Shown here piece by piece: positions 19,818 to 64,000 of a stretch of DNA of 64,000 nt. The stretch's first letter is position 1; each line of letters begins with the position of its first letter. Under the pieces are notes generated by a model that was given only the letters and a program-made list of their open reading frames with translations, ran no database searches and was not told where the DNA came from. The DNA comes from Tetrahymena thermophila SB210 (taxonomy: Eukaryota > Ciliophora > Oligohymenophorea > Hymenostomatida > Tetrahymenidae), in contig NW_002476563.1 of assembly GCF_000189635.1 (NCBI RefSeq), positions 402,183 through 466,182 on the forward strand, in the 5' to 3' direction. The position numbers and the translations under genes are program-made.

Positions 19818-21453
19818 TTAAAAAATAATTTTTTCATGTGATTTTTCATGATATATATTTTTATTTTTTTAAAAAGGATATAATTTAATTAAATAAATTA
19901 GCTATACTTCATAATTATATAATAGTTAGATATTAATGGATAATTGAATTTGAAGTAATTCAAGCAGTTATATAATTTTTAAATTATTTTCAAAAATTAA
20001 CTAGGAATAATAATAAATATTCTAATTCTTTTTTGCACTTCAAATTTAGCTTACTTTCTTAAACTTTGTGCTTTAGTTTTTTATTTTATCTTCAAAAAAG
20101 CAGTAATTAACTCTAAAAAAACCACAATTTTTAAAAAATTTTATTTCAGTTATTAAGAGAGAAAGTTAGAAATAATAAATTAAAAATTAATTCATTCATT
20201 TTTAGAAAATAAAGAATGTAAATTAGTTTATATTTTTATGACAAATATATTTTATTCTCATCCAATATTAAAAAAAACTATTTTTCTTAAAACATTAGTA
20301 GTAGAAGAAAATAAAAATTTTATCTAATATAAGTAATTATATACTTTATTATTAATCTAGTATTTATGCATATTAAACTTAGTGAAATTGATGTTTATAA
20401 GATTTCTTTCTATTAATAATACTGTTTCTTAACAAAAATAAAAATTAAAAAATTAATAAAATTGGGGTAAATAATTTATTTTATTAAAAAAAATAAATTT
20501 ATGAAGTGACTTTAATATTAAATTGCTTTCTTATTTTTAAAAAGAATTTCAAAATTTATTTATCACTATAACCTAAAAATATAAATATTTAATTCAGTGA
20601 ATCTAACAAAGAATTTTCAAAAAATAAATGATTATTTTAAAAATTAAAGAATTTTAGAATTAAAATTCTTTCACTTTATACAAAACACCACAGAGAATTA
20701 GTTAAAAACCTAGATTGTAAAAAAATTAAACATCTTTTTATAAATAAAATAATTTTTGTCAAAAATATTAAAACATTCATTTTAAGGAGGTCTTGTTCAT
20801 AAAATAAACTCATACTAACATATTAATTCAGTAAAGTATATCATGCATAAATTAAAATCCTATGTCAATTATACTAATCAAATAAATTTTCTATGAACTC
20901 AAATATAAACCAAATATATGATTTCACTAAAAGTTAGTTTATATATTAATCATAATTTCTTTTTTCATTAATATAAAGAATCTTTTTTGTTTATTAAATA
21001 TTCTGATTAAATTAAGAGTAGTAAATATTTTTTTATTTCATAATTTTAAAAGGAATCTTTTAGTACTAAGCATAAAAAGTAAAAAATAATTAAAAAAGTG
21101 ATTTTACACCAAAAAAAATTGAGTGTTATCTATTTATTGTTTGTAATTAGAAACAAAAGAATAGATAGAACAGCCCAAATCTAATTAACTATAAAGTAAA
21201 TGCATGAATTTTCCTGTTTATTGTATTAAGGATAATAATCAGAGTGTCTTGATTTTATTAATTAATATAATATAATTATAAATGAAGATAATAAAATAAA
21301 ATTTTTGTTTAGATTAACAAATTACTTTAAAGTTTTTTTAGTTATTTAAAAAACCATAATTAAAAATAATGCAAAAAATAAGAATAAAAAACTAAAAGTA
21401 AACACAAATTCTTTATCAAGCAAATACATTTGAAATTATACTATCTAAAAATA
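19818..21453. other. Spacer between PUS7 and membrane-protein gene A
   Basis: Very AT-rich with no open frame under the ciliate code. It aligns loosely with the unit B spacer (29301-31074). From ~20655 it also aligns with the unit C upstream region (~36620 on), for example the shared TTTCACTTTATA and TCAATTATACTAATCAAATA-type segments. It probably holds the promoter of gene A. Confidence 0.6.
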
Positions 21454-24400: not shown

Positions 24401-26580
24401 TTTCAAATTTAACAGATCCATCTAAAATCTAAATAAAAATATAAGTCAGTGATGGAGTTAATTATGATATATACAAACAATTTGAATGTGGAGATACTCA
24501 AATAATTACTCTAAATAGTCAGACATATAAAAATCCGAATCTTAGCTTATAAGATGATTTTAATCATAAATTTTCATAAGCCAGTGTTCAGATTTTAACT
24601 AAATTTGATTATTAAATCAGCTCTGAAGTCTTTCTTAATAAAGATGTCTCTAATTTAATTTTAACAGCATTTATTTTGAGCAATAAAGGCACATACACTC
24701 CTTTGAATAATTAATTTTGGCTCTCTTATGATTAAAATTAAAAAGTTTTCTCAGGAACTCCTTCATCAAGCGAATATAATACAGTTATTAGACTCAAAGT
24801 TGTTGCTACAGATGGATATACAACAGCAGAAGATTTTTTAGAAATTCATATTAACGCTATACCTCTTTCTTATGTTCTGACTATTTTATTTTAAGTTTTA
24901 GGTCCTACTCTAGGTCTTTTAGGTTTGTGGAGATACAGCTCTACTTTTTATAATATAATCAATAAAAGTAAACATGAAACTTCTTTGATTACGGTTAATG
25001 CTGGAGAGTAGATTATTTTACAGATTCCACTAATAAAAGATGAAATGTAAATCGCTAGAGACATCTGGGGTAAATTCTACAAGTAATTATCTAAAGATAG
25101 TTTTATATTAGCACTAACCAAATCAAAAGAAACGTATTCAAAAAATAAAATGCATCAAAATATTCAAAAAAAAATTGTAAAAAATTAACAAAATTTTATT
25201 AAATCTATTCAATCTGACTATTTCTTAAAAGTTAACTAAAGTTAAGAATAACAATCTCCATAGAGAAGTAATCCTTTGAGCCCAATCAAGCTTTGCAATG
25301 ACGAAAATGAAAGTTAATTTTAAAACAACTCTCCAACTCATTTACATGAGCTAACTTCTTAAGGCCTCAAAAACAAATTTAAATTTCCACAACTAAACAA
25401 TGATAAAAATATCGAAAATTCATCTTAAGTATCTTAATTTTAGACAATAGTTAGTGCATCTAAAGCTAATAAAATTTAAAGATAAGTCACCAAACTTGAA
25501 AAAAAACAAGTGAAAATGTCAATAATGATATCATAAAAATATAAGTAAGAAGAGCCCAAATAAGCTGAGGATTAATCAAATAACAGCTATTTTACTTAAT
25601 CTGGATACCTGAATAAATAATACATACTAGACTAAGTAAGAATATTTTTAACAACTTAAAAAAAAATTAAAAATAAAGAATTTGTTATCAATCAACTTAA
25701 AGATTCTAATAGTAAATTATCTTACTGTATCTTTGGTCTTGCATCAGTTTAATTTGCTGAATTTGATGAATCAACTAAAAGAATTATTGAGTTTCTTAAA
25801 AGTGTTGCAAGCTAAAGTTTCTCCAGTCAAGAATGGTATAAGCAATATGTTTTTGTATAACCTTGTATTGAATTAATACAGACATAACCTTTTCCTACCA
25901 TTTAAATAAATGAATAAGCATTAAATGAAACTCTGAAGATATTTAACTATGAAGAAATAAATTAAACTTAAAAAACTAATTCTAACTTATTCTTCTCAAT
26001 TTTTAGACCACTTATTGAAGATTACTTGATTGCAAGCTGTTATGGTTTTACCTTTGATACCTTTTACTTTATTCCTCACCCTATTGGAGAATGTCTTCAA
26101 ATGAAAGCTCACTCTCTAAAGTGTATCGAAGGATACGTTCCAGTAACTGATTCTTCTTGTATGAATTTAAGAAAATGCTTAGGGCTTGACTATGTTTAAA
26201 AAGAATTTATTGAAAACTAAAAACTGAACTCTTGGGTTTAGATGATTGACATTTCTAATAATGTCATACTACTTAAAGGGGTCCCTTTAAACAAAGACGT
26301 TGGAAGATATTTATTCAAAATAAATGATTTCAATGGTTACACAATAAAAAGAATAAATATTGAAGTTAATTACAATAAATAATTAGCTTCCTAATTTAAA
26401 AAGAATGAATTAACATAGAAATCTACTGTTTTTCCAGAAGCAGATTAAAATATTGAAGAGGGTTATGCATAAGATGAAGTGCAAATGATGGTTTCTCAGT
26501 ATTGTAATTTTACTAAAAAGAATTCATAGAATTTGAATGATATTTACTAAACAAGTTAAAAAGACGAGCTACTTGAATGA
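21454..26580 (+). CDS. Large single-pass membrane protein with LVIVD-type propeller and cadherin-like domain, copy A
   Basis: One uninterrupted exon of 1709 codons (1708 aa). Residues 1-~27 are a signal peptide (MKKIGKQILKVFFVLLYIK...). Residues ~90-620 hold beta-propeller-like LVIVD repeats, clearest at ~491-625: LFVAGGQAGLIVIDISDINN, then YLGVVIYDISDFHNPKQVN and VYTLGGEDVFL. Residues ~1080-1134 look like a He_PIG/dystroglycan-type cadherin domain: FWLSYDQNQKVFSGTPSSSE with VVATDGYTTAEDFLEI. One membrane segment follows (IPLSYVLTILFQVLGPTLGL, ~1136-1158). The ~550-residue C-terminus is cytoplasmic, first Q/S/K-rich and then a conserved segment with EDYLIASCYGFTFDTFYF. This is a surface receptor or adhesion architecture; the ligand is unknown. 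The function is not established. It is the first of three tandem paralogs. Confidence 0.9.
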
Positions 26581-27403
26581 AATAAAAGTGTATTAATATT
26601 ATTTTAATATATATTTTACATTACTAATTTGTTTTTGCTATAAAGTAGATTATTAATTTTTCTTTTAATTTTATCATAATAACTTTTTTTAATGATTTTT
26701 TAATTTAATTTTGCAATATTAAATTCAAATTTCTAATTAAAAATAATTTTTTATTAGAGAAGTTACAATTGGAGGATTTTTAGACCAGTAGGCAGAAAAA
26801 ACGTCTCTGCCTACTATTTTTTCGCCTTCCAAGTATTTTCCTTGGAGGGCTACTTTTTTAGACTTTTTTAAAAACATTTTTAACAAATTTTAATTATAAA
26901 TTATGTTTCAGTACTTTTTTACTGAATAATTTTTATTTTTTAACCCTTATAAAGTAAAAAATTTTTAAATTCTGAAATGAACTAAATTGAAAATAATATG
27001 AATTTACTTGATTTAAAAATATTTTATTGAATTTGCTTGAAAATTATTTTTTAAATAAATACAGAAGAATGAGTTTCTTGAATGTAAAAAAAATTATAAA
27101 AAATTTATTTCAAAAATTTTGTTTACACCACATATTTCCCTTTATATTAACCTTAATTAATTTTATAATTTATGTAAATAAATAATAAAAATGATTTGTG
27201 TCTAAAGATACTTTAAATTCTACTATTTTTATTTTAATACTATCAATTTCTAAGTATTTAAGATTAAAAAATATTAAACAAAATTGAATATTTATGGGTA
27301 ATATCAAGATTTAACTTAAAATTTTGTTTTACAATTAACACTCTCAAAAATATTAAATAAAAAACAAATTAGTAATAAGGTTAGGAGATAGCATATAATT
27401 TAA
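26581..27403. other. Junction between duplication units A and B
   Basis: AT-rich apart from a GC-richer island of two hairpins (26787-26850, listed separately). Similarity to the PUS7 upstream region begins at ~27151, so 26611-27150 is DNA unique to the A/B junction. No coding frame is visible. Confidence 0.55.
26787..26850. other. Two adjacent hairpins in a GC-richer island
   Basis: Bases 26787-26796 (AGTAGGCAGA) pair perfectly with 26806-26815 across a 9-nt loop. Bases 26824-26833 (GCCTTCCAAG) pair with 26841-26850 across a 7-nt loop, with one G.T. Poly-T runs follow on both sides (T-runs at ~26817 and ~26853). This could be an unrecognised small RNA, a terminator-like structure, or a remnant of a foldback element. 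It does not match a tRNA. Confidence 0.4.
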
Positions 27404-29300
27404 ATGAATTAATAGAAAGCTACATAAGGAGAAACTAATGTAGGTAATAATGTCTTTTTAACCTAAGGCAAACTTTTTATAGGCATTGCTAATTATAGAA
27501 TTAAAGATTTTATTATAAACGAGGATATTTAAGATAAAGAGACCTTCTGAGAAGACAACATTTTAGAAATAAAATAATTAGAAGAACGAGAAAACAAATT
27601 AAATGGCTATTCAAGATGAAAAAAAATCAAAATATGAAATTTCTGAAGAAATTTCTTAGAAAATAAATGAAATATTTGGGTATGAAAAAGGAGAAAAGAT
27701 GATAAAGTTTTGCAAAGACTTAGAAGCAGGCTTGGAGGCTAAAGAAAACGAATTCAATTTTTAGTAGACTGCCCTAATGAAAAGAGAGAGAGACTCAAGA
27801 TTCATCAATTTGTGAGATAGGAGCTAATCCACATGGATTCTTCCACTGAGGGAGATAATGCAAAAAAGTCTATTAAAGTATTTTTTACAAAAAACAAAGC
27901 AAAAAGAGGTAAGATTGACCAAAAGGTTTACAATTGCGTTTTATTTAAAAATGGCATAGACAACTTTACTGCAATTCAAAACATCAGTAAATATCTGAGA
28001 TTACCTCCAAAGAATATTAATGCTGCTGGTATTAAAGAAAAAAGAGGAATCACTACTCATCTTATCAGTATTGCTATGAGTAATACATCAGCTGAGATAC
28101 TCAATCAAAGATTCCAAAATTCTAGATGGAACAAAATGAAATTCTAAAATGTTAAAGATGCTACTTCTAAACTCAGAGCTGGTGATTTGTACGGAAATAG
28201 ATTTTCATTAGCAATTAAACTGGTTTCTTACGAAGAACAAGAAGTCATAAAAGCAGTTGAAGACCTTAAAAAATTAAGGTTTATCAATTATTTTGGTATG
28301 CAACGTTTTGGCACAAATAATAGCATTCATACTCACGAAATAGGTAAAAATATAAATGCTATATATAAAAAAATTAAGTCGCTCAAACAAAACAAAAATA
28401 AAAGTTTTTAATTTATGGGTGATTTTTAACAATTTTTATTTTTTAATTAGGTTTACTCATCCTAAAAAGACAGTAGGAATAAGTTTTTGATTCAATAGTT
28501 GGATAAGAAACAAACGATAAAAGAGTAAATGAAGCTAAAAAAGCTTTCTTAAAGGATAAAACTTAAATTAGAGATGCTTTGAGGGGCATTCCCTTTAAAT
28601 ACAAAATAGAAAGAACATTATTGTAAGGTTACGAAAGAGTAGATATGAAAAATAATTTCCTATAAGCCATTTGATTTTTAAACAAGAGCACTAGAAATCT
28701 TTATTGTCACGCTTACTAGAGCTATATATGGAATCTACTTGCTTCTTATAGAATTCAGACAATAGGTAACTAGCTTGTTAATGGGATATAGTAGCAAAAA
28801 AGAGAGAGAATTTTTTGATAGATGGTGAAGCTGAAGGTGATGATGAAAATGGCTAAGAAGAAGAAGAATCTAAATATTAAAGCATTGGTGATTATGAAAT
28901 TGAAGTGATAGACGACCCAAATATTGATAAATATACTCTCTATGACGTTCTTATTCCTATAATAGGAGGAAAACTTAAAGTCCCTGAAAATTTTAATTTA
29001 AATGCTTATCTCATTTCAATTTTAGAAAAGGATGGTCTTGATTAATAATTGTTTGAATAAGTTTAAAAGAAATTTTATGTAGAAGGAGGTTACAGATTTT
29101 TAATATGTTAAGCTGAAGACGTTTAATACTCTCGATTAATAAATACAATAAAAAAAACCAGACACTCTTACTCCTTACTACAACCTTTAGCAAGATTAAT
29201 AAGAAGAAAACGGTAAATATAGTGCAGAGAATTAACGAAAATTTCTTCTGATTTTGACACCTAAATGGGTTTAAATAAAGAGTACTAACACTTAGAATGA
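27404..29300 (+). pseudogene. PUS7/TruD pseudogene (duplicate of 17855-19817)
   Basis: Clear full-length copy of the PUS7 gene with several disabling lesions. An 8-bp deletion near 27545 (GAGACACTTTATCC reduced to GAGACC) puts a TGA at 27548-27550, codon 49. A second TGA-bearing stretch is near 27617. A 1-bp deletion lies near 27760 and another near 28782. A 51-bp deletion at ~29225 removes the region that in the intact gene encodes most of SYATMLIREL. The catalytic block (AAGIKEKRGITT) and the intron at ~28349-28451 are still recognisable, but Asp-flanking residues have changed (KDK to KEK, so the catalytic Asp itself is lost). No intact enzyme can be made. The standard-code ORFs at 27833-28147 and 28187-28411 are fragments of it. 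Confidence 0.9.
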
Positions 29301-31074
29301 TTAAAAAATAATTTTATATAGAAATTTTTTATCATAAATATATTTCTGTATTTTTTAAAAAAAGAAATAATTAAATTTAAAAAATTAGTTCTACTTCACA
29401 GTTTATTATAATACTTAGATAATAATAATTCTTTATAGTATGTGTTAACACTAAGTTTAAATAGAATTTGTAACAATTTAAAAAATTATACAATTTTAAA
29501 ATTATTTTTTGAAAAAAGGAATAATTATAAATATTTTAACTCTTTTTGAACTCAGAATTTAGTATAATTTGTTAACCTTTGTGCTTTTATTATTGTTACA
29601 TTTTATTCTATCTGAAAAAAAACAGAAATAAAAAGCTAAAAAATCCTCAAAATTAAAAAAATTTTATTTAAATAAAGCAATAAAGCAAAAACTACTTTAT
29701 TTTTAGGAAATAAAGAAGGTAAATTAACTAATATATTAATGATTAATATGATTTATTCTTTGCTTTTAAGAATAATACTATAATACTTAAAACGTCAATA
29801 GATGAAAATAGAAATAATAAAGAAATTAAGTATTAAATAATTCCTGTTTGATTTATTCTTATTACCCCAAGATTTTTATAGCATGTTATTAAATATAAGA
29901 AAGTATATACTTTACATATTCATTTAGCAACGAATTTGATGTTTAAAAGATTATTTTTTTAGTTTTTATTAATCCTCTTGAATGATAAGAAAAATTAAAA
30001 AAATAAAAATTAAAAAAATATGTAAAATTGGGGTAAATAATGATCCTGTTATTGAAATAAGAAATTTTATTAAACCACTTGAGTTTTTTATTACTTTCTT
30101 ATCTTTTTAGAAGAATTTCAAAAAATAAATAAAATCACAATAATCTAAAAATAGAAAAATATTTATTTGATTTTGAGTGGACCAAATAATATCTTCATAA
30201 AATAAATGATTATTTAAAAAATTGAGTTTTTTAAGAGCTTTACAATTATAACTCTTTCACTTTTTATAAAATGCAGAGAGTTAGTTAAAAATCTAGAATA
30301 TAGAAGAATTAAGCATCATTTTGCAAACAAAATTTAATTCTTGCCAATAAAATAATAATTGATTTTTAGGAGGTCTTCTTTATATAATTAATTCATACTA
30401 GTTTTTTAATTCAGTAAAGTGTATATCATTTATAAATAGTTAAAACCATATGTCAATCATACTAATCAAATAAATTTTCTACAATGTCAAATATTAAACG
30501 AAATATATGATTTCAAAAAAATATAATTTATATATTGAACATAATTTCTTTTTTCATTTTATGAAAGTATCTCTTTTGTTTACTTCATCAAGATTGATTT
30601 TAGTTTGTTAACAAATTTAAGAGTATTAAGTATTTTTTTTAAATTTAAAATGAATTTTTTGTACCAATAATATAAAATAAAATAATAAGAAAATTGAAAA
30701 AGTGATGTTACACTAAAAAAAATTTGAGTTTTATCTATTTACTGTTTATGATTTGAAATTAAAAAAGATCAGCCCAAATCTTATTAAATATAAACTAATT
30801 GAATGAATTTTCCAGTTTATTCTACAAAGAATTATATTAACTATGTCTTATTTTATTATTTGACATCATTACAATAGAGGATAACTTTGCTAATGAAATA
30901 AAATTTTTCTACATTAAATAAAATTTTGCTCTTTTTAATAATTTACTTTAAAATTTTTCAAGTTAATTAAAAAGCCACAATTAAAAATAATGCAAAAAAT
31001 AACATTAAAAAGTTAAACTAAATACAAATTCTTTATAAAATAAATAAATTTGAAATAATACTTTCAAAAAAAAG
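29301..31074. other. Spacer between PUS7 pseudogene and membrane-protein gene B
   Basis: AT-rich and non-coding. It aligns loosely with 19818-21453. Its last ~840 bp also align with the region before gene C. It probably holds the promoter of gene B. Confidence 0.6.
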
Positions 31075-34000
31075 ATGAAAAAAATAGCAAAACAAATTCT
31101 AATAATCTCTTTTGCATTACTTTAGATAAAGACTTTCGTAGAATGTGCATTATCTTATGAGTAGTAAATAAATCTTATGAATAAATAAGTATATTCATCA
31201 CTTCAAGTTGTTCAAGTTGATCTAAACACTATCTGTCAAACGAAATAACTAAAGTTTATAATAACTCTACAATAGCCATACTAGAATTACTTCTTTGCAC
31301 TCAGCGATAACTGCGGTTTAGTACTTTCATAACTTTAGATATCAACAGGAGACTATAAGCTCATTTAAAGCTATCCTTCTATAAAGAATGTCTCAGCAAT
31401 AGCTTACAATTATGCTCAGAATACACTATGGGTAGCTGATTACTCCTTTGCGATAACTATTTATGATGCTTCTAATCCCTAAAAGCTTTAAGCTTTGAAT
31501 CAGATAAATTCATTTACTTTATCTACTTAGACCATCTAATTTAGTTATGATAACAAGCAGGTCTTCTTTCTTTAGGCATAAGGGAATATTCAAATTTATT
31601 TGATGTAGAACTTAGTTTTCATTTAAAAGTTTATCAACACTAATAATCCAGCTTCAATTCTCGTTTTGCCTCAGTAAAACCTTTTAATTTTAGGAGGATA
31701 TAATTTATATTTCTACTAAATCTAGAATAGCAGTTATGATCCCACATAACCTTATTAGCTTGGTAATTCCTAATAAATTATTACAGGAGACAATACACCT
31801 AAAATGTACTTTGTTGATAATAAATATCTATTTACTTGGTCCACATTTACAGGATTAAACCATTACGACATTTCTGGTTGCATTAAAACATAAAAATGTG
31901 ATAATACATCAGTTATCATGATAGCAACCCAAAAGTAGCTCATCTTGGGATTTTAAAATATCTATTTGACTAAGGACACAAATTACTTCATCGTTTTCTA
32001 CAATTTTTATGGAATCTACATTTATGATGTCAGTTAAAGATCAGGATTTGCCTAATACTATAGCATTTAGCTTACAGGATTAAATACTGCTATGGGAATA
32101 AGTTAAGACGAATCATTTATTGTCTTAACCTTAGATAATTCATTGAATGTCTATAGGTAAATCCCTTCAAACCTAAATATTCAAGCTCCAAATATTCTCA
32201 ATACACATTAAAATACCTTGTTTAACCAACATGTTTAATCTGTAAGAACATTTTGGCACTGCACCATAGATGATAATCTTAACATGGTTATTTCTAATGG
32301 AGCCAATGGAGCTTGGTTAATGAATATTAATCCTATCAATTACAGTATTAATATAGTCTAGCACTTAACTTACCCATTTTCAAATAATATCTTAGATGAA
32401 CCTCGCTTTTTGTCAGGACTTAAATATCTTGCTCTTTCTCCAGGCTACTTGATATATTTCTATTCGAGATCTGCAGATCTTTCACAAGTGACACAGCTTT
32501 CTATTTACACACCACCAATGAATAATGCTCATATAGGATGCATAAGATAATCAAAAGATGGAAATACTTTGTTTGTTGCTGGAGGTTAAGTAGGCTTGAT
32601 AGTAATAGACATTTCTGACATAAATAACCCTAAACATATCACTGCTGTTTATTATACTTTCCCTTTAGCTCCAAACTGCTAAAGCAAAGGAATTTCGATA
32701 TCAAATGATGAAAAATATCTTTATATGACATATAGATATTTAGGTGTTGTAATCTATGACATTTCAGATTTCCACAATCCTAAATAAGTAAATGTTGTTT
32801 ATACTTTGGGTGGAGAAGATGTATTTCTTACTGATGACAATTTGAATATGGTAGTTGTTGAAACTATTTATGGGCTTTCTTTCTGGTCACTTGAACCAGA
32901 TAGAACAAAACCAATAAAACAAGCATCTCTAAGGACTTAGGGATAAGCAGTACACATGAGATTTCTTTAAAGCTGTAGCTTTATTTTAACAACTTCTTTA
33001 TACAAGGGATAGTTGTTTTTGATTGACTACAGAGACAGAACTAACCCATAGCTTATTCAATCATACTAATATTAAGGAGTGGAGGTTACCTCAGGTGATG
33101 TGTGTGTCTCACCAGACGAATCCTTTTCGATGATGATATTCCCTTATGGAGTTGTTTATATACCTCTAAGAAATCCCGTCGTATTTCATACTGATATAAT
33201 TTGGTTACAAGATATACCAAACTCTTCGATGAAGAAATAAATCTTAATGAATCCAGTTGATTCGATCTCAAAAGCTTAAAATTTATAAGTTGGTATGAAT
33301 GTCATACTTAAACTAAGTCAGCTTTATTCAGTAAATACTGTAACCCTGGTAAACGCTTTTTACTATGAAAACCAAGTTATGAAGCCACTTCCTACTTGGA
33401 TTTCTATCTCCTAGAATTCTTTGAGCGCAGAGGTTTCAGTTGATAAATCTGCCATAGATTCATCATTAATTCAATCTTAAGTAAGCAAATAAGGTAAAGG
33501 TGATGGCATATCCTCTTAAGTTGTTATACAAAATAAACTCGTTTTTTTCTAACTTTCAGAAAGAATTTCAGCTTCTGATTTTGTGCAGTCGTAAATAGGA
33601 ATTTCAAGTTCACTCTCTACTTAAATATTTAATGATTGCATCGCATATCAAATAATATTAGACTCTGGTTTTATAAACCCAAACTACTCAGATAATTAAA
33701 TCCAGTCTTCTTTAACTTCTTAGGTTTATACACCACAAATCTTAGAGTAAATAAAGTTTATTCTTCGCCAAAAAATAACTAATTACCCTGTTCAATTCAA
33801 TATTCAAAATTCTCTCTTTATAGATATTTACTCTCAAGTAAAAGTTATCACTTCATACTCTTCATCAGTTGTTGTTTACTTTTTTGTCAACTCCACTGTA
33901 GCATAGTTTGTGAATAAAAACTACCCCGCAGTCTTAACTTCATTTTCTTCTAACTTCGACTAAATTTAAATATAAGGAGGCATTGATTCTGTTAACTCTG

Positions 34001-36198
34001 TCCTTCTAAATGGTGTCAAAATTTCAAATTTAACAGATCCTTCTTAAATCTAAATAAAAATATAAGTCAGTGATGGAGTTAATTAAGATTTATACAAACA
34101 ATTTGTATGTGGAGATACTCAAATAATTACTCTAAATAGTTAGACATATAAAAATCCGAATCTTAGCTTATAAGATGATTTTAATCGTAAATTTTCTTAA
34201 GCTAGTGTTTAGATTCTAACTAAATTTGATTATCAAATCAGCTCTGAAGTCTTTCTTAATAAAGATTCCTCTAATTTAGTTTTATCTACACTTGTTATGA
34301 ACCACAATGGTACTTATGCTCCTTTGAATAACCAATTTTGGCTCTCTTATGATTAAAATTAAAAAGCTTTCTCAGGGACTCCCTCATCAAGCGAATATAA
34401 TACAATTGTTAATCTCAAGGTTGTTGCTACAGATGGATATACAACAGCAGAAGATTTGTTAGAAATTCATATCAATGCTATACCTCTATCTTATGTGTTG
34501 ACTATTTTATTTTAAATTTTAGGTCCTACTCTCGGTCTTTTAGGTCTATGGAGATACAGTTCTACTCTTTACAATATAATCAATAAAAAGAAGCATGAAA
34601 CTTCTTTGGTTACTGTTAATGCAGGAGAGTAGATCATTTTACAGATTCCTCTAATTAAAGATGAAATGTAAATTGCTAAAGAAATATGGGGTAAATTCTA
34701 CAAGTAATTATCTAAAGAAAGTTTTATATTAGCACTGACCAAATCAAAAGAAAACTATTCAAGAAATAGATTGCATTAAAATATACAAGAGAAAATTGCT
34801 TAAAATTAACAAGCTTTTTTTAAATCCATTCAATCTGACTAGTTCATAAAAAGCAGCTAAAGCTAAGAATAGCAAAATATTATGAGACTTAATGCGTTGA
34901 GTCCAATTAAGATTTGCACAGAAGAAATTGAAAGCTAACTATAAAACAACTCTCCAACTCATATGCTTGATCTAACTCCTTAAGGCATCAAAAATAAACT
35001 TAAATTAACACAAAACGATGATAAATATTTAGAAAATTCATCTTAAGCATCTTAATATAAACCAGTAGTTAGCGCATCTAAAGCCAACAAAATTTAAAGG
35101 CAAGTCACCCAACTCGAGAAAAAACAAATGAAAATGTCAATGATGATATCATAAAAATATAAGTAGGATGAACCAAAATAAGCTGGTGATGAATTAAATA
35201 ACAGTTATTTTACTTAATTTGGATACCTGAATAAATAATACATACTTGATTAAGTAAGAATATTTTTATCAACTCAAAAAAAAATTAAAAATTAAGAATT
35301 TGTCAATAATTAACTTAAAGAAGCTAATAGTAAATTATCTTGCTGTATCTTCGGTCTTGCATCAGTTTAATTTGCTGAATTTGATGAATCAACTAAAAGA
35401 ATTATTGAATTTCTTAAAAGTGTTGCTGACAAAAGTTTTTCTCCTCAAGACTGGTATAAGCAATATGTTTTTGTATAACCTTGTATTGAATTAATATAGA
35501 CATAACCCTTTCCTACCATTTCAATAAATTAATAAGCACTAAATGAAGCTCTGAAAATATTTAACAAGGAAGAAGCAAATTAAGCTTAAAAAACTAACTC
35601 TAGCTCTTCCTTTTAAATTTTTAGACCACTTATTGAGGATTATTTGATTGCATGCTCTTATGGTTTTACCTTTGATACCTTTTACTTTATTCCTCACCCT
35701 ATTGGAGAATGTCTTCAAATGCAAGCTCACTCTCTAAAATGCATAGAAGGATATGTTCCAATAACTAATACTTCTTGTATGAGTTTAAGAAAATGCTTAG
35801 GGCTTGACTATGTTTAAAAAGAATTTATTGATAACTAAAAACTGAATTCTTGGGTTTAGATGATTGATATTTCTAATAATGTTATACTGCTTAAAGGGCT
35901 CCCTTAAAACAAAGATGTTGGTAGATATTTATTCAAAATAAATGATTTCTATGGCTACACAATAAAAAGAATAAATATTGAAGTTATTTACAATAAATAA
36001 TTAGCTTCCTAATATAAAAAGAATGAATTAACATAAAAATCTACTGTTATTCAAGAAGCAGATTTCAATATTGCAGAAGGTTCTATTTAAGATGAAGTAT
36101 AAATGATGGTATCACAGTATTGTAATTCAACTAAAAATAATTCATAGAATTTGTAAGCTATTTACTAAATGAGTGAAAAAGATGAGTTAATTGAATGA
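31075..36198 (+). CDS. Large single-pass membrane protein, copy B
   Basis: One exon, 1708 codons (1707 aa), with no internal TGA found. It has the same layout as copy A: signal peptide (MKKIAKQILIISFALLQIKT), LVIVD-like propeller repeats, cadherin-like domain, one membrane segment (near 34480-34560) and a long Q/S/K-rich cytoplasmic tail. Around 31660-32050 the DNA is almost identical to copies A and C, while the signal peptide and the cytoplasmic linker (34780-35060) differ more. The standard-code ORFs at 33086-33271 (minus), 35300-35494 (plus) and 35539-35730 (minus) are shadows. Its function is unknown, presumably the same cell-surface role as copies A and C. Confidence 0.9.
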
Positions 36199-37501
36199 AA
36201 TAAAAATGTATTAATATTATTTTAATATGTAATTTTTATATACTTCATTCTTTATATTGAGTAGTATCATTTTAAAGATTATTGGTATTTTTTTATTAAT
36301 TTTGAGTTTGAACACTCTCATAGCTCGTTATTTAATTTTCAATGCATCTCTGTTTGTGAAAATTAAGGTTTATATTGATATTTGATTATATTGCTATTTT
36401 TTAACTGTTGAATTTGATAAAATGTATTTGTATAAGTGTTGAAGTTTTATTGGTGTCTATAATTATTAATTTTAACTAATGTGGTTATATTGTTGTTAAT
36501 TATAATTCACCAGTAAATACAATTACTATTATTTTTTTGCTTTTCGTACCTAATTCTTCTATATATACAAAGATTTATACATAATAAATTAGTTTTTTTT
36601 TATTGTAAATTATTTATTGAGATTAGAATTAAAATTCTATCACTTTATAAATAACCTCTTGAGTTTGTTGAAAAGATAAAATATAAAAACATTGAACCTC
36701 GTTTTATAGATAACATTTTAATTCTTGTCAAAAATGTCTTTCATAGACTTTATAAAATTAATTAATAATTGTATTTTAATTCATTTAAGAGCATCTCATA
36801 AATAAAAAATTAAAATTAAAATCAATGTCAGTCACTTATTTAATCAAATAAAATTTCTACAGCTTTTTTAAATTTTATTTTTATTTTCATAACATTGTGT
36901 ATGACGTCAAATAATAAGCTAAATATATGTCTTCACAAAAATTTACTTTTTTTCTTAAATATAATTTATTTTTTCACTTATAAAAAGTATCTCTTTTGAT
37001 TATTAAATATTCCTATCAGGATTTTAGTTTGCTAACAAATTTAATTGTAATAATTATTTTTTTATTTGAAAATTTTAAAATATTTTAAGAATTAAGCATA
37101 AAAAATAATCAAAAAAGAAAATTGATAAAGTTATGTCAACCTAAAATAAATTCAGTGGTTATCTATTTAATGTTAATAATTTAAAGTAAATAAACAGTAC
37201 CATTTAAATCTGATTAATTATAAAGTAAATTCATTCATATTATAGATTATTCTACTAATAATTATAATCAATTTTTTCATTATAATAACTGATATAAGTA
37301 GAAAAGGGGATAACTTAGCTTAATAAGTAAATTTTGTTATTTTTATATGAAATTTTTTTGAGTAATTTTAATTAAAATTTCTTGAATTTATTTAAGAAGA
37401 TTATACTTAAAAATAATGCAAAAGATAACAATAAAAAGTTAAAAGTAAATAAAAATTCTTTATAAAACATATAAATTTTAAACAATACTTTTAAAAATAA
37501 G
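36199..37501. other. Spacer between membrane-protein genes B and C
   Basis: AT-rich. Similarity to the upstream spacers of A and B starts at ~36620. From 36304 to ~36620 it is unique, and no trace of PUS7 was found, so unit C lacks it. Confidence 0.6.
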
Positions 37502-40500
37502 ATGAAAAAAACAGTAAAATAAATTCTAATAATCTTTTGTGGATTGCTCTAGATAAAGACTTTTGTAGAATGTGCATTATCTTATCAGTAGTAAAAAAAT
37601 CTTATGAACAAATAAGTATATTCATCACTTCAAGTTGTTCAAGTTGATCTAAACACCATCTGTCAAACTAAAAAGCTAAATTATATTATAACTCTTCAAT
37701 AGTCATACTAGAATTACTTCTTTGCACTCAGCGATAACTGCGGCTTGGTACTTTCATAACTTTAAATATCAACAGGAGACTATAAGCTCATTTAAAGCTA
37801 TCCTTCTATAAAGAATGTCTCAGCAATAGCTTACAATTATGCTCAGAATACACTATGGGTAGCTGATTACTCCTTTGCGATAACTATTTATGACGCTTCT
37901 AATCCCTAAAAGCTTTAAGCTTTGAATCAGATAAATTCATTTACTTTATCAACTTAGACTATCTAATTTAGTTCTGATAACAAGCAGGTCTTCTTTCTTT
38001 AGTCATAAGGGAATATTCAAATTTATTTGATGTAGAACTTAGTTTTCATTTAAAAGTTTATCAACACTAATAATCCAGCTTCAATTCTCGTTTTGCCTCA
38101 GTATAACCTTTTAATTTTAGGAGGATATAATTTATACTTCTACTAGATCTAGAATAGCAGTTATGATCCCACCTAACCTTATTAGTTTGGTAATTCCTAA
38201 TAAATTATTACAGGAGACAATACACCTAAAATGTACTTTGTTGATAATAAATATCTATTTACTTGGTCCACATTTACAGGATTAAACCATTACGACATTT
38301 CTGGTTGCATTAAAACATAAAAATGTGATAATACATCAGTTATCATGATAGCAACCCAAAAGTAGCTCATCTTGGGATTTTAAAATATCTATTTGACTAA
38401 GGACACAAATTACTTCATCGTTTTCTACAATTTTTATGGAATCTACATTTATGATGTCAGTTAAAGATCAGGATTTGCCTAATACTATAGTATTTAGCTT
38501 ACAGGATTAAATACTGCTATGGGAGTGAGTGAAGATGAATCATTTATTGTCTTAACCTTAGATAATTCATTGAATGTCTATAGGTAAATCCCTTCAAACC
38601 TAAATATTGAAGCTCCAAATATTCTCAATACACATTAAAATACCTTATTTAATCAACATGTTTAATCTATAAGAACATTTTGGCACTGCATCATTGATGA
38701 TAATCTTAACATGGTTATTTCTAATGGAGCCAATGGTGCTTGGTTAATGAATATTAATCCTATCAATTACAGTATTAAAATAGTATAGCACTTAACTTAC
38801 CCATTTTCAAATAATATCTTAGATGAACCTCACTTCTTGTCAGGACTTAAATATCTTGCTCTTTCTCCAGGCTACTTGATATATTTCTATTCGAGATCTG
38901 CAGATCTTTCACAGTTAACACAGCTTTCTATTTACACTCCGCCAATGAATAATGCTCATATAGGATGCATAAGATAATCAAAAGATGGAAATACTTTGTT
39001 TGTTGCTGGTGGTTAAGTAGGCTTAATAGTAATAGACATTTCTGACATCAATAACCCTAAACATATCACCGCTGTTTATTATACTTTCCCTTTAGCTCCA
39101 AACTGCTAAAGCAAAGGAATTTCGATATCAAATGATGAAAAATATCTTTATATGACATATAGATATTTAGGTGTTGTAATCTATGACATTTCAGATTTCC
39201 ACAATCCTAAATAAGTAAATGTTGTTTATACTTTGGGTGGAGAAGATGTATTTCTTACTGATGACAATTTGAATATGGTAGTTGTTGAAACTATTTATGG
39301 GCTTTCTTTCTGGTCACTTGAACCAGATAGAACTAAACCAATAAAATAAGCATCTCTTAGGACTTAGGGATAAGCAGTTCACATGAGATTTCTTTAAAGC
39401 TGTAGTTTTATATTAACAACTTCTTTATACTAAGGATAGTTGTTTTTGATTGACTACAGAGACAGAACTAAACCATAGCTTATTTAATCATACTAATATT
39501 AAGGAGTGGAGATTACCTCAGGTGATGTGTGTGTCTCACCAGACGAATCTTTTTCGATGATGATATTCCCTTATGGAGTTGTTTATATACCTCTAAGAAA
39601 TCCCGTCGTATTTCATACTGATATAATTTGGTTACAAGATATACCAAACTCTTCTATGAAAAAATAAATCTTAATGAATCCAGTAGATTCGATCTCAAAA
39701 GCTCAAAATTTATAAGTTGGTATGAATGTCATACTTAAACTAAGTCAGCTCTATTCAGTAAATACTGTAACCCTGGTAAACGCTTTTTACTATGAAAACC
39801 AAGTTATGAAACCATTACCTACTTGGATTTCTATCTCCTAGAAAACTCTAAGCGCTTAGATTTCAGTCGATAAATCTGCTATTGACTCATCATTAATTCA
39901 ATCCTAAGTAAGCTAATAAGGTAAAGGAGATGGAATATTCTCTTAAATTGTTATACAAAATAAACTCGTTTTCTTCTAACTTTCAGAAAGAATTTCAGCT
40001 TCTGATTTTGTGCAGTCGTAAATAGGAATTTCAAGTTCACTCTCTACTTAAATATTTAATGATTGTATGACATATCAAATAATATTAGACTCGGGTTTTG
40101 TAAATCCAAACTACTCAGATAATTAAATCTAGGCTTTTTTAACTTCTTCTGTTTATACACCACAAATTATGGAGTAAATAAAGTACATTCTTCGCCAAAA
40201 AATAACTAACTACCCTGTTCAATTCAATATTCAAAATTCTCTCTTTATAGATATTTACTCTCAAGTAAAAGTTATCACTTCATACTCTTCATCAGTTGTT
40301 GTTTACTTTTTTGTCAACTCTACTGTAGCATAGTTTGTGAATAAAAACTACCCCGCAGTTTTAACTTCTTTTTCTTCTAACTTCGACTAAATTTAAATAT
40401 AAGGAGGCATTGATTCTGTTAACTCTGTCCTTATAAATGGTGTCAAAATTTCAAATTTGACGGATCAATCTTAAATCTAAATAAAAATATAAGTCAGTGA

Positions 40501-42757
40501 TGGAGTTAATTACGATTTATACAAAGAATTTGTTTGTGGAGATACTCAAATAATTACTCTAAATAGTCAGACATATAAAAATCCGAATCTTAGCTTATAA
40601 GATGATTTTAATCGTAAATTTTCTTAAGCTAGTGTTTAGATTCTAACTAAATTTGATTATCAAATCAACTCTGAAGTCTTTCTTAATAAAGATTCCTCTA
40701 ATTTAGTTTTATCTGCACTTATTTTGAACAACAATGGTACTTATGCTCCTTTGAATAACCAATTTTGGCTCTCTTATGATTAAAATTAAAAAGTTTTCTC
40801 AGGAATTCCCTCAGCAAGTGAATATAACACAGTCCTTAGACTCAAGGTTGTTGCTACAGATGGATATACGACAGCAGAAGATTTTTTTGAAATTGATATA
40901 AATGCTATTCCTCTATCTTATGTGTTGACTCTTTTATTTTAAATTTTAGGTCCTACTCTCGGTCTTTTAGGTTTATGGAGATATAGTTCTACTTTTTATA
41001 ATATAACCAATAAAAGCAAACATGAAACTTCTTTAGTTACGGTTAATGCAGGAGAGTAGATAATTTTTCAAATTCCATTAATAAAAGATGAAATCTAAAT
41101 TGCTAGAGACATTTGGGATAAATTCTACAAATAATTATCAAAAGAAAGCTTTATATTAGCACTAACCAAATCAAAAGAAATTTATTCAAAAAATATATAG
41201 CATCAAAATATACAAATGAAGATTGATTAAAATTAATACATTTTATCTAAATTAAACCAATCTTATTAGTCCATTAAAAGTAACTCAGCTTAAGAATAGA
41301 AAACTCCTAATAGAATTAATCAGTAGTATTCATTCAAGGATTGTGTAGATGAAAATGAAATATCATTTTCAAACAACTTTCAAGCTCATGTTCTTGATCT
41401 AACTGAATAAGGCCTCTAAAATAAATTTACACTTTCACAAAAAGTAGATGATAAAAGTTTTGAAAATTCACCTTCATCATCTTAAAAAAAATCTCTATTT
41501 AGTGTATCTAAAGCTAATAAAATTTTAAGACAAATCTCCCAACTTGATAAAAAACAAGTGAAAATTTCAAAGAAGATATAATAAAAATATAAGTAACAAC
41601 TTTAAAGATAAAAAGCTGGTAATGAATCAAATAACAGTTATTTTACTTAATCTGGATACCTGAATAAATAATACATACTTGAATAAGTAAGAATATTTTT
41701 AACAACTCAAAAAAAAATTAAAAATTAAGAATTTCTTAGCAATTAGCTTAAAGAAACTAATAGTAAATTATCTTGCTGTATCTTCGGCCTTGCATCAGTC
41801 TAATTTGCTGAATTCGATGAATCAACTAAAAGCATTATTAAATTTCTTAAAAATGTTGCAACAAAAAATTTCTCTCCTCAAGACTGGTATAAGCAATATG
41901 TTTTTGTATAACCTTGTATTGAATTAATACAGACATAACCCTTTCCTATCATTAAAATAAATGAATAAACACTAAATGAAGCTTTGAATATATTTAAATA
42001 GGAAGAAATAAATTAAACTTAGAAAACTAACTCTAATTAGTTTTTCTCAATTTTTAGGCCACTTATTGAAGATTATTTAATTGCATACTCATATGGCTTT
42101 ATATTTGATAAATTTTACTTTATTCCTCGTCCTATTGGAGAATGTCTTCATATGAGAGCTCACTCTCTAAAGTGTATTGAAGGATACGTTCCAGTAACTA
42201 ATACTTCTTGTTTGAGTTTAAGAAAATGCTTAGGGCTTGACTATGTTTAAAAAGAACTTATTGATAACTAAAAACTGAATTCTTGGGTAAATATTATAGA
42301 TATTTCAAATAATGTTATGATACTTAAAGGGCTTCCTTAAAACAAAGATGTTGGAAGATATTTATTCAAAATAAATGATTTCTATGGCTACACAATAAAG
42401 AGAATAAATATTGAAGTTAAATACAATGAACAATTAGATTTCTAATTTGAAAAGAATGAAATAATATAGTAAAATATTGATTTTCCAGAAACAGATTCAA
42501 ATATTGCTGAGAGTTTTGTTTAAGATGAAGTACAAACGATAATCACACATCATTACTACCATACGAAAAAGAATTCATAAAATTTGAACACTATTTTCTA
42601 AACAGAAAAAGATGATTTAATTCAATGAAATAAAAATCTATTAATATTCTTTTAATAAATTTTACATTAAAATTGGGTTTTTAGTTTATATTTTTTCTTA
42701 TTCTTTAAATTTAGTAGCATTTTACTTAAAGATTATTGGCTATTTTATATTAATTTA
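36620..42757 (+). repeat. Tandem segmental duplication, unit C (membrane-protein gene only)
   Basis: Contains ~880 bp of upstream spacer plus the full membrane-protein gene and a short 3' flank. These align with 20655 onward (A) and 30237 onward (B). The step from B to C is ~6.4 kb against ~9.6 kb from A to B, because PUS7 and part of the spacer are absent. Confidence 0.8.
37502..42628 (+). CDS. Large single-pass membrane protein, copy C
   Basis: One exon, 1709 codons (1708 aa). The signal peptide is MKKTVKQILIIFCGLLQIKT, followed by the propeller, cadherin-like and membrane segments as in copies A and B (membrane segment near 40910-40985). The cytoplasmic linker (41180-41500) is the most diverged of the three, with extra or changed S/Q/N-rich sequence, while the following conserved part (SCCIFGLASVQFAEFDESTK) is retained. 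No TGA interrupts the frame. Retention of three open copies of a 5.1-kb frame suggests each is under some selection or that the duplication is recent. Confidence 0.9.
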
Positions 42758-43179
42758 TGTAACTAAAATCTTAATTTTAGATTTATTAAAACTAGCTTTA
42801 GATGCTATTTTATAAAAATTTTTAGCTAAATATTTATTTGGTTTTAGTTACTTCAATTTAATTTTTTTTAATAAATCAAAAATAAAAATATTAAAGTAGA
42901 AATAATTTAAATAATTTGACCTAATTATAGACCTCCCCTCTTTACCTTGTTTCGGCATAGTTGGAGGAGTTATGGTAATAGATATTATTATTTTAAAAGT
43001 CTTTTAATATTTAATTCTTATCAAAAGTTTTTATAATATATTGAATTTTCTATTTTTCTAAATCTAAATAACTCAAATTTTGAATAGTTAATATTTATAC
43101 AAGTTTTATAATGTTTAATAAAATCATAATTTATTATTATCTAAACAAATTTATTAATTCTTATAATTTAGATTTAAGT
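42629..43179. other. Intergenic region with a short GC-rich island
   Basis: It contains the end of unit C and AT-rich DNA. At 42929-42977 there is a ~48-bp patch of much higher GC bounded by ATTATAG and GTAATAG. It could read as an internal exon (PSLPCFGIVGGVM) with good splice signals, or form a CCTCC/GGAGG stem. It might be an upstream exon of the selenoprotein gene. Unproven. Confidence 0.4.
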
Positions 43180-43545
43180 ATGATTAGGAAATTCTTTTTG
43201 TAAACATTAAAATAAAATAAATAGTTGACAAGCTTTTAAGGTTACACTTTTGCTAATTACAAATTTGATATTAAGTACTGTGTTTCATGAGGTTCAAGAA
43301 GTGCTTTTAACTAATTAGAAAGACATATTAGGTAAAAGTATGAAATTAATTAAAATACCGTTTAAATTGAATCCAAAACAGCTGATTCTTTTGATGGAAG
43401 TTTTGAAGTCTTTCTTTCTTTAGATAACCAAAAGCAAGTGTAAATATGGAGTGCCTTGAAAGGAGATGGGAGATTTACACAAAGAAATTTAGCCATATTT
43501 GATTAAAGAATTGAAAACTCAATTAATGAAACTAAAAAAGCTTGA
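43180..43545 (+). CDS. SelW/Rdx-family selenoprotein candidate with TGA-encoded Sec
   Basis: Reading from ATG 43180 with TGA at 43288-43290 as selenocysteine gives a 121-aa protein ending at TGA 43543-43545. The internal TGA sits in KYCVS-U-GSRSAF, exactly at the U of the CxxU redox motif of the SelW/SelT/SelH (Rdx) thioredoxin-like fold. After it the frame stays open and keeps the family's hallmarks: amphipathic helix (FNQLERHIRQKYE), GSFEVFLSLDNQ strand pair, GDGRF turn and C-terminal helix (FDQRIENSINET). A SECIS-like hairpin lies 63 nt beyond the stop (43608-43650). Rdx proteins are small thiol-redox or glutathione-linked proteins. The N-terminus is a little longer than usual, and an upstream exon is possible. 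The alternative is a pseudogene with a nonsense mutation, which the hairpin makes unlikely. Confidence 0.82.
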
Positions 43546-44041
43546 AAAGTGAAAAATTATAATATTAATTGATACATTATCTTGATTATGATTTATAAAA
43601 TTTTTAAATGAAAAATAAAACCAAAAGTTTTATTACAGGTTTTGTTTTGAGCTGCTATAATATTTATAGATTTTATAATAAAGTTTTATATCAAATATAA
43701 AATTAATTTTTTAAAATTATTTAAGCGCAATGTCCTTCTTACAACTTGTTAGCATTTATTTTTAATACAAATTGAAATACTCATAATATTATTAAATTTC
43801 TTTTATTTAATTAAGTTTTTAACAATTCTTTTTTTTCTTTAAAAATATATTAATTTGTTATTCCACTATAATGAATTTTGTTTGAATGAATAATTGCAAC
43901 AAATGACTAATATTTTTTAAAAATAAAGCAAATCCTACATAAAAAATGTCTTTTTGTTTATCATTTAAAAATTTTTTTTAATTTTGTTTTAAAATAGTTA
44001 AAGTAAAATAAATTTTTTTAATAAAACAAAACAAACAAATT
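43546..44041. other. Convergent 3' region of the selenoprotein and DNAAF4-like genes
   Basis: It carries the SECIS-like hairpin (listed separately) and is otherwise AT-rich with nothing else visible. Confidence 0.5.
43608..43650 (+). promoter_or_regulatory. SECIS-like element in the selenoprotein 3' UTR
   Basis: ATGA at 43608-43611 and GA at 43649-43650 form the expected non-Watson-Crick quartet. Between them, an 11-bp helix forms from 43612-43622 (AAAATAAAACC) with 43638-43648 (GGTTTTGTTTT), containing one G.T. The apical loop begins with AAAA (43623-43626), the unpaired A run of eukaryotic SECIS elements. The element is 318 nt downstream of the Sec TGA. It would bind SBP2 to recode that TGA. 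Confidence 0.8.
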
Positions 44042-46427
44042 TCATTTTTTAGTTTCATTAATTGTTACATCTATTTTTAAAATATCTTATTTTAATTATT
44101 CGTTATTAGGATCTAATTTTAAAGCTTCTTCTAGGTCAGATTTGGCATTGAAAATTAAATTCTATTTCAAATAAGCATTTGCTCTTCTGACCAAGAACCT
44201 GGATTCAAAGCTAATTAATTTATCTTTTTCCTCTTTAGTTAATTTTTGATTTGTCCAAGAGATGACTCTATTTTTGTAGCTTCTAATTATTTTAAGACCA
44301 CGAAGGCAATTTGTTATAATATCTTCATACTTTTCTAACTTCAGGAAGCATGCACATCTGTTTAGTAATATGGCTAAATATTCTATTGTTTCAGTACTAT
44401 CTATTTTCTTCAAGCATTCATTATAAATTTCAAGTGCTTCACTTACTTTATTTTCCTTAAAAATTAAAAAAATTAAATTAAAACTGAAATTCTTTTAAAA
44501 CTATTTACTTTCATAAATGCAGCTGCTTATGCTTTAAGATGATTGACTTCTTCAATTGCAAAAGATTTTTCTATTTCTTTATAAATTTCTTTAGCCTCAG
44601 AGTTTTTATCATTAATTTAAATAGCTTGTTTAATTGTATCAAATGATTCTTTTAATAATTTCAGTTACTATTGAGCTTTTGCCTTTCTTATGTAAAGCTT
44701 TATCAAAAAATTATTTGAATCTTACACACTTTGCTTATTTATTGGGTTAAAGCTTGCAAATCTTGTAAATTTTTAAACTTTTTCAATACTTTTATTGCAA
44801 AATTCAACACACTCTTAGTTTTTACCCATCTTAAGATATGTTAAACTTATATTTCCCATAGCTGTTTCATTATTGTCAATTTCAAGGCATTTAAAATATT
44901 TTTCTAAGGCTTTTTCATACTAAGCAGATTTGAAAAGAGTATCTCCTTGCTTTTTTATTAAAATACTTTCTTTTCTTTTTTATATAGTTTATTAAACTCC
45001 TTCAAACTATTAAATCAGCTAGTTGTCTTTCAAGTAAAAGATATCTTCACTTAAAGACTTGTCTAAAATTTCTAAACTTCTATCAACATCTCCCTATTTA
45101 TTATATAAAAATTATTTATACCAAATACTTAATTTAGAAATTACCTTCCATGATGTTGCAATAGCTTTCCTTAAAATTGTTTTTAGTCTTAAAGATTAGT
45201 TTTTAGCAAGCTCTTTTTCTTCTTCTTTTAGAGAATTGCAGTAGCTAAGGACCATATCTGCATCCATCAGTGCTTCTTCATAGTTATATAAATGGATATT
45301 GCAAGCACAACGATTAGCTATACAATTTATCATAGACTAATCTAGTTTGTAGGCTTAATTATATGCCATAATAGCTGAATAAAAATCTTAATTTTTATAG
45401 AATTCGTCACCTCTGTCCTTCAACCAAAGAGGATTTTTATTTTCTAAATCATCGCCGCTCTTTTCTTACTATTATTTTACTTTTGGAAGGGGAGGTTCTT
45501 TAAAGTGTTATTCTCTAGCAGCAACTCCTGGATACATTCTCTAAGTAAAGGCTAAATCTAACTTCTTTTATTCTCTCACCTTTGGTTTATCATCATATTC
45601 AACAGCTAATTCTTCGTTCCTGAAAATGTCTTCATCGTTGAAAATAGTATCGTCGTATTTATGAGTCCAAATAATTTAAGGTTTGACTTTTTATGTATTT
45701 TAAAAAATTAAATTTTTCTCATCAATTATTATTTGAAATTAAAAATAATTGAAGTACTTTCTTCCTTGACCTTTGTTTTCTATTCTTAGTTTTGAGTTAT
45801 GTTTCCTTTTTCATCAACATCATCATATATTTTATCAATTGCTTACTTTTGAAAAATGAATAATTTTATTGAATTAAATTTTATGTTTAAAATAATTACA
45901 TTTTTTTCTTCGGTCTTTTTGACTTCTAAAACCTTTCTGTTTTCATCTTCCAATCTCATTTGTTCTTTAGTGGCATGAGTATCGAATTTTATTTTTAAAT
46001 CATTTCTTTGCTTTAAGTGCTCTTAATAAGCTGTCTCTCTTCTTTAGAATGATTCTTATCTTCTTTTCTTTATTTATTCCTTATCTAGACCATCCTCGAT
46101 AAGGTCTTCCCAATGTTTTTTTTCTTCTTTCTTTACTAAAATTATTTCTAGAACTTCATTTGCATAAACGACATTGTTTTCTTATCCTTAAAAGTCGATT
46201 TCATGCTTAAGGTCCAAAACTCTGACCCACTTCTTTTCTGTGATGTTAATTTTTAAAACTAAATCTGAAATAAAGATATCAATTTTCTTCATAGTGATTC
46301 CTTTAATTGGGATTCTAATCTTAACTATTTTGTTATCTTAATACCACTCATAACCATGTTTTGGTTTAATTCTTGGAACTGGCTCTGGTGGAAATTGAGG
46401 GACTCCTGCTGCATTATTTCCTATCAT
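44042..46427 (-). CDS. DNAAF4: DNAAF4 (DYX1C1)-like axonemal dynein assembly factor: CS domain + TPRs
   Basis: Five exons on the minus strand: 46427-45900, 45845-45758, 45686-45145, 45093-44509, 44455-44042 (2157 nt, 718 aa plus TGA), phases consistent. The N-terminus is a p23/CS-like domain (YEWYQDNKIVKIRIPIKGIT to VYANEVLEIILVKKEEKKHW). A charged coiled-coil follows, then the DNAAF4 signature region LAFTQRMYPGVAAREQHFK and the TPR start NPLWLKDRGDEFYKNQDF. The family acts in the cytoplasm with HSP90/R2TP to preassemble ciliary dynein arms, which fits a ciliated cell. Human DNAAF4 is 420 aa. The extra ~270 residues here are a second TPR array (ILIKKQGDTLFKSAQYEKAL, LKLDPNNEQLK). The ORF at 44162-44413 is part of the last exon. 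Confidence 0.85.
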
Positions 46428-47118
46428 TTCTATTTACTTGGCTTTTAAATATTTGGTGAAAGACTAATTAATTAACTATTTTAATTTATTTTCTAAAGAT
46501 ATTGATTGAAAATGAATTATATTTTTTATCAAAAATTTAAAATTTTAATATCTCTTTCACTTTTATTATAATTAATTTTTGTTTTAAAATTTAATAACTC
46601 ATGAATAATATGTAAAAATGAATGAATATTATTTTTCAAAAATATCTAATTAAATGTAATTTTTTTTTCAATAATAAGTAAAAATTTGAAACTTTCTCAA
46701 ATTTATGCAATTATAATTTAATTTAATTCAAACAGCAATTTTTGGTAAAAATTTTAAAATTATTATTTCAAAATTCATTTTAAAATTTAAATATCTTAAA
46801 ATTAGATTTAATTAAAATATTTATTAAAATTATAAAAATTAAATTTGAAAAAAAAGAATATTAATTTTATAATTTTGCAACTATTTCACTAAGAGATAAA
46901 TTATAATTTAGAATGAGTTAAATTTTAAGTATTTGTCAGTAATTATATATCTATCTTCTTATATAGTTAATGGTATTACAAGTGACAGTTTTTAGGCGTA
47001 ATTATATAAATAAAAATATTAATTAATAGAGATTGTTTTTACTTAGAATAATATTTATAATCAATTTATCTATAGATAATCAAAATAATATCTTTCTCTA
47101 TATTAAAACATTACTTCA
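46428..47118. other. AT-rich divergent intergenic region
   Basis: Between the starts of the DNAAF4-like gene (minus) and the cyclic-nucleotide-binding gene (plus). It probably holds both promoters. No gene or repeat is seen. Confidence 0.6.
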
Positions 47119-63973: not shown

Positions 63974-64000
63974 TTGGGGTTGGGGTTGGGGTTGTGGGGT
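63974..64000 (+). repeat. Telomere (GGGGTT repeats) at the right chromosome end
   Basis: The final bases are TTGGGG repeats, four G-runs in all, the last preceded by an irregular TTGTGGGG. The G-rich strand runs 5' to 3' toward the end, the correct polarity for a right telomere. GGGGTT is the Tetrahymena telomerase product. Only a few repeats are included and the last is imperfect, perhaps a read error. Confidence 0.93.

Follow-up and report, generated by a model that had tools for sequence, protein, structure and literature searches.

A candidate SelW-type selenoprotein gene in a ciliate, with UGA proposed as both selenocysteine and stop

Described ciliate selenoproteins and the present locus

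In an organism that stops translation at UGA alone, both meanings of that codon, selenocysteine (Sec) and termination, have to coexist in each selenoprotein mRNA. The closest described set is that of Tetrahymena thermophila, for which the available portion of PMC2612030 gives six putative selenoproteins (two GPx, three TrxR and SPS2), retrieved in BLAST searches whose queries were selenoproteins from six named sources. These resemble the locus described here in that UAA and UAG encode Gln, UGA serves as sole stop and as Sec, and the SECIS elements, which are AT-rich, lie in the 3' UTR; unlike the present gene, however, none of the six is assigned in that portion to SelW/Rdx. A later paper keeps, in its accessible text, one of the two T. 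thermophila GPx, with no SECIS found for that one (PMC7409322), and the Sec machinery (Sec-tRNA, eEFSec, SBP2 and SPS) is reported for this species in the available parts of both papers (PMC2612030, PMC7409322). The nearest single protein is eSelW of Euplotes crassus, likewise a ciliate SelW, in which Sec in the N-terminal part (codon 9) is joined by a further in-frame UGA towards the C-terminus (codon 85). According to the accessible text of PMC3737529, UGA in Euplotes is Sec or Cys and never stop, whereas the second UGA here must be a stop; the same text reports that, in human cells, Sec is inserted more efficiently at codon 85 of eSelW than at its natural codon 9.

Neither the use of all 64 codons nor the existence of a ciliate SelW is therefore new: the former, which the original prediction had described as already reported for Tetrahymena, is so stated in the available part of PMC7409322, and the latter is the Euplotes protein in that of PMC3737529. 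What is added here is a SECIS element and a two-UGA geometry. Literature searches on selenoproteins of ciliates and, by name, of Tetrahymena, Paramecium and Ichthyophthirius showed no paper recognisable by title or abstract as treating a Tetrahymena SelW among the matches listed, a scope outside which lay the 2006 genome paper and most subscription papers; in PMC2375036, Tetrahymena appears only in the references. On the evidence of sequence, the locus described below very probably encodes a SelW-type selenoprotein with Sec at the UGA of codon 37. Its features (Table 1) lie in a 64-kb stretch of DNA, hereafter the window, with a G+C content of 24.5%.

Table 1. Features of the candidate selenoprotein gene and its SECIS element (positions in the window).
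Feature	Position	Strand	Basis
SelW/Rdx-type selenoprotein CDS (predicted), 121 aa, apparently one exon	43180..43545	+	Code 6 with TGA37 as Sec; family profiles; G+C
Predicted Sec TGA, U of CxxU (C34-V-S-U37)	43288..43290	+	Translation, profiles, alignment, residue swaps
Predicted stop TGA, 62 nt 5' of SECIS AUGA	43543..43545	+	Drop in G+C and coding score past it
Second in-frame TGA, possible back-up stop, 35 nt 5' of SECIS core	43570..43572	+	
SECIS element, full-length match to Rfam SECIS_1 (model positions 1-64)	43600..43663	+	Rfam search
SECIS AUGA, 5' side of non-Watson-Crick core	43608..43611	+	
SECIS helix II, 11 pairs between 43612-43622 and 43638-43648, with the apical loop from AAAA at 43623	43612..43648	+	Fold
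GA, 3' side of core (UGAG; last position not the usual A/U)	43649..43650	+	

Reading frame, protein family and the residue at codon 37

Translated under code 6, 43180-43545 (+) reads M...YCVSUGSRS...KKA-stop; codon 37 is TGA, ten TAA/TAG codons are Gln, and the TGA of codon 122 closes the frame. Two curated profiles recognise the product, and both matches run across TGA37: Pfam Rdx (PF10262) at 37.3 bits (cut-off 22.6, E=3.1e-9, residues 30-101) and NCBIfam TIGR02174 (CXXU_selWTH) at 37.8 bits (cut-off 34.2, E=1.8e-9, residues 30-99). The 121-aa frame with TGA at codons 37 and 122, as first proposed, is thereby confirmed, and its identification as an Rdx/SelW protein with TGA as Sec, made with no mention of a SECIS element, is supported. 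For the 84 residues after TGA37 taken alone, Rdx is the sole Pfam match within E=0.01 (18.2 bits, E=0.003), and the 36 residues before it have no Rdx match in Pfam up to E=1. The Rdx similarity expected downstream of the TGA is thus present and co-linear, but stays below the cut-off when that piece stands by itself.

This shortfall favours a former Cys- or Sec-encoding gene, now dead, whose reading frame simply stops at the first TGA, with pseudogene or UTR beyond it; SECIS relics without Sec have moreover been reported in ciliate GPx genes (PMC7409322, available part). Composition argues otherwise. The flanks (300 nt each side) have a G+C of 0.17 and 0.15, whereas 43180-43287 has 0.22 and 43291-43542 has 0.28; coding-like composition thus passes the first TGA and stops at the second. 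The 84 codons after codon 37 contain no other TGA, the SECIS element is rightly placed, and the TGA falls on the sole residue where Sec is usual, all of which make a dead gene very unlikely. In the sense frame the codon score rises from -2.6 before TGA37 to +13.8 after it, and the scores of both flanks are negative in six of six frames. Over 43291-43542 the antisense frame scores higher than the sense frame (20.5 vs 13.8), a point in favour of the true gene being the antisense frame 42876-44054 (-) and the sense frame accidental; yet in the two antisense frames tried there was no Pfam match better than E=0.14, and the Rdx match (3.1e-9) and the SECIS element are both on the sense strand, leaving this reading a negligible probability. 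Equally improbable is the removal of TGA37 by an intron. Within the ORF, 122 GT-AG pairs at least 18 nt apart would take it out, but every such pair deletes codon 37 and the stretch has coding-like G+C. Splicing-out of 43288-43290, foreseen in the original prediction as a counter-reading, is possible on paper; 48 of the pairs keep the frame, and 46 of these would leave the product with no YC.

At codon 37 the profile scores 37.4 bits with Cys, as against 29.4 with Trp, 30.6 with Arg and 29.9 with Gln; since Cys gains 6.8 to 8.0 bits, the TGA occupies the redox Cys/Sec site of the family. That Cys is the best of the four residues tried would also fit a second tRNA, or readthrough, placing another amino acid (Cys or Trp) at UGA37 with no selenium involved, and UGA is indeed Cys in Euplotes (accessible text of PMC3737529). 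Against such a reading, a SECIS element would be purposeless, and TGA ends not only this gene but three nearby long paralogous ORFs. A terminal TGA is built into any ORF called under code 6; the informative point is that the alignment of the three copies runs up to the codon immediately preceding TGA in each, so that TGA does act as a stop, while TAA (92-101 uses each) and TAG (27-32 each) occur in them as sense codons. We consider a non-Sec amino acid at codon 37 extremely unlikely. Pseudogene, general UGA reassignment, splicing and antisense gene were accordingly all rejected in favour of a Sec-containing Rdx protein.

Comparison with relatives points the same way for the family. Human SelW is identical to the ciliate protein at 18 of 67 residues aligned by BLASTP. 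When the query is aligned with four members of the SelW family, of which three are partial sequences, Y33, C34, C/U37, G73, F75, E76 and G97 are invariant across all five; the YCxxC/U motif, G-x-FE and a later G are thus kept. A single-sequence AlphaFold2 model (mean pLDDT 70.4, with blocks of 66-84 over residues 21-120) has the order beta-alpha-beta-beta-beta-alpha and places residue 37 in the loop that connects strand 1 to helix 1; the CxxU motif (C34-V-S-U37) follows strand 1 (26-34 in the model), the arrangement by which the family is recognised. Among the best 50 of 1376 Foldseek matches (E up to 10), 2obk is second and 2npb nineteenth, with 2oka and 2fa8 also present; 2npb and 2fa8 are SelW-related by title, and 2obk and 2oka are chains that we take to be of the SelW family. 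None of these 50 reaches E 0.001 or better, the first is a T. gondii mitoribosome chain, and many complex I and mitoribosome chains are intermixed among them, so that the modelled fold is consistent with the Rdx family without being decisive. A PDB sequence search with the selenoprotein gave, up to E=10, one match, unrelated, at E=0.16. Assignment to SelW rather than to SelT, SelH or Rdx12 is a judgement from the short length of the predicted protein and a KGDG motif in common with human SelW. Mammalian SelW (mouse, 2npb) and C17orf37 (2ljk), presumably Rdx12/MIEN1, share the Rdx family and a CxxU/CxxC motif with the ciliate protein, which differs from them in 1) 24 additional residues before the motif, basic and with no D/E before residue 30; 2) about five more residues between strands three and four; and 3) S-R rather than Y-K after U-G. 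Residues 1-29 (43180-43266, +), with several K/R and no D/E, might by eye be a mitochondrial targeting sequence.

Searches for relatives and copies were negative within their scope. Viral contigs gave 11 pattern matches and prokaryotic genome contigs 76, none of them a relative; plasmids gave no match; and tblastn against the window (best 20 rows) revealed no second copy of the gene, the non-self rows that touch this protein lying at E=4.4 (across a join in the query) and E=13.

The SECIS element and its surroundings

The SECIS match begins 54 nt past the stop, on the same strand as the gene, so that the coordinates originally proposed hold for the coding part, while the functional unit extends beyond them to about 43663. 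SECIS_1 is the top Rfam match of the window on both strands, matching at full length with 28.7 bits and E=0.16 over 4227 families, which is below the Rfam gathering score of 35; no Rfam family reaches its gathering score in the window, and the one other match up to E=10 is unrelated (E=9.3). Dividing 0.16 by the number of families gives this single family an E-value of about 4e-5 for both strands of the 64 kb, a figure that takes no account of the position just after a stop. The element contains the AUGA...GA core, helix II and apical A run of a SECIS, folding with a helix II of 11 pairs, a 15-nt apical loop that opens with AAAA and a UGAA/UGAG core, and 43546-43663 would be transcribed as 3' UTR. 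Its minimum free energy is ordinary for its composition (69-nt stretch, z -0.75; 44 of 200 shuffles fold as well), and the evidence is accordingly that of an ordered motif and not of stability.

A home-made SECIS pattern, devised after this element was known, recovers it together with four of the six published T. thermophila SECIS elements. When the 300 nt 3' of the stop are shuffled, three of 20,000 shuffles score equal or better by this pattern, and 100 dinucleotide shuffles of the window give a chance rate, at this score or better, of 0.02 matches per 64-kb strand. The window itself holds two plus-strand and two minus-strand pattern matches. One minus-strand match, at 37706-37663 inside a plus-strand long ORF, scores 15.0 against 14.5 for the element described here; it has no Rfam match up to E=10 and is probably due to chance. 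MAFFT alignments of SECIS elements misplace helix II in some rows, as judged by eye. A predicted SECIS without Sec in nine ciliate GPx genes, and Sec without a detectable SECIS in 11, as reported in the available part of PMC7409322, further counsel caution on SECIS as evidence.

The remainder of the window shows several features in their own right. The three paralogous ORFs, of about 1700-1800 codons, stand in tandem at 21286-26580, 31054-36198 and 37214-42628 (+), the selenoprotein gene lying directly 3' of the third; at the protein level copy 2 shares 86% and copy 3 83% identity with copy 1, and at the DNA level identity is 88-90%. Scans of copies 1 and 3 with Pfam gave sub-cut-off matches to beta-propeller (copies 1 and 3) and Ig-like (copy 1) families. 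A duplicated gene (17593-19690 and 27150-29225, +; DNA 90.5% identical), which by a motif looks like a TruD/PUS7 pseudouridine synthase, seems part of the same tandem duplication. At 44042-46556 (-), an ORF with a CS domain (21.0 bits, cut-off 21.3) adjoins TPR ORFs, perhaps forming one gene with introns, which we assume could be a DNAAF4/DYX1C1-like cilium assembly gene; the gene at 45576-46556 (-) has, by eye, one probable intron of about 54 nt, longer than those of Paramecium. PDB sequence searches with three other ORFs returned no match, no match and 20 acyl-CoA dehydrogenases, respectively, and ARAGORN found no tRNA in the window. Repeats of TTGGGG, the Tetrahymena telomere repeat, occupy 63974-64000, where the window apparently reaches a macronuclear telomere. 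We take the source of the DNA to be Tetrahymena or a close relative.

Two UGA codons at different distances from one SECIS element

The stop UGA lies 85 codons after the Sec UGA, and the distances to the SECIS core are 317 nt for the Sec UGA, 62 nt for the terminal UGA and 35 nt for the next in-frame UGA. The UGA within the AUGA of the SECIS core (43609-43611, +) is also in frame with the ORF, such that at least three in-frame UGAs follow the Sec codon. In the scheme that we propose, a ribosome would decode the UGA of codon 37 as Sec and carry on until the codon 122 UGA, at which eRF1 would end the chain; the in-frame UGA eight codons past the stop could catch leakage. The product, from an apparently single-exon gene, would be a small redox protein with a thioredoxin fold, belonging to the SelW/Rdx family. 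The frame, the match to the family, the SECIS match and the distances are seen in the sequence; transcription of the gene, Sec insertion, termination at codon 122 and a redox role are predictions.

The codon 122 UGA may stay a stop through its closeness to the SECIS element (62 nt) or through a position preference of the element itself, and the candidates are distance, proximity to poly(A) and SECIS structure. Three sets of published observations bear on these. Firstly, Sec insertion is cited, in the accessible text of PMC3737529, as needing a minimum of 51 nt between UGA and SECIS, with best effect at 200 nt or more, which would place the terminal UGA near the limit and the next UGA, at 35 nt, below it. 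Secondly, the distance from true stop to SECIS is usually 50-110 nt, as cited in the available part of PMC7409322, making 62 nt an ordinary value. Thirdly, in Euplotes TR2 the UGA-SECIS distance was doubled with coding unchanged, a result that the authors, in the accessible text of PMC3737529, attribute to the SECIS itself or its structure and that counts against a pure distance rule at codon 122; proximity to poly(A) has been discussed for Euplotes termination in the available part of PMC10235951. If the SECIS here acted as that of Euplotes SelW does in human cells, the stop at codon 122 would leak. Distance to the SECIS as the cause of termination is, on balance, a tentative suggestion that we regard as somewhat more doubtful than not.

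If the DNA is that of T. thermophila, the published list of its selenoproteins, compiled from BLAST searches with queries from animals, algae and Plasmodium, is incomplete. The broader reading, to which we give neither preference nor dismissal, is that the locus represents an unlisted Tetrahymena selenoprotein family and the first SelW from a ciliate that has no stop codon other than UGA, and that position relative to the SECIS or to poly(A) sets the meaning of UGA, in contrast to Euplotes SelW, which in human cells took Sec better at the UGA closer to its end. Were it true, the gene would be a natural two-UGA reporter, with one codon read as Sec at 317 nt and as stop at 62 nt from one and the same SECIS element; being small, with one Sec, one stop and a SECIS close by, it offers a compact case for testing what separates the two meanings of UGA.
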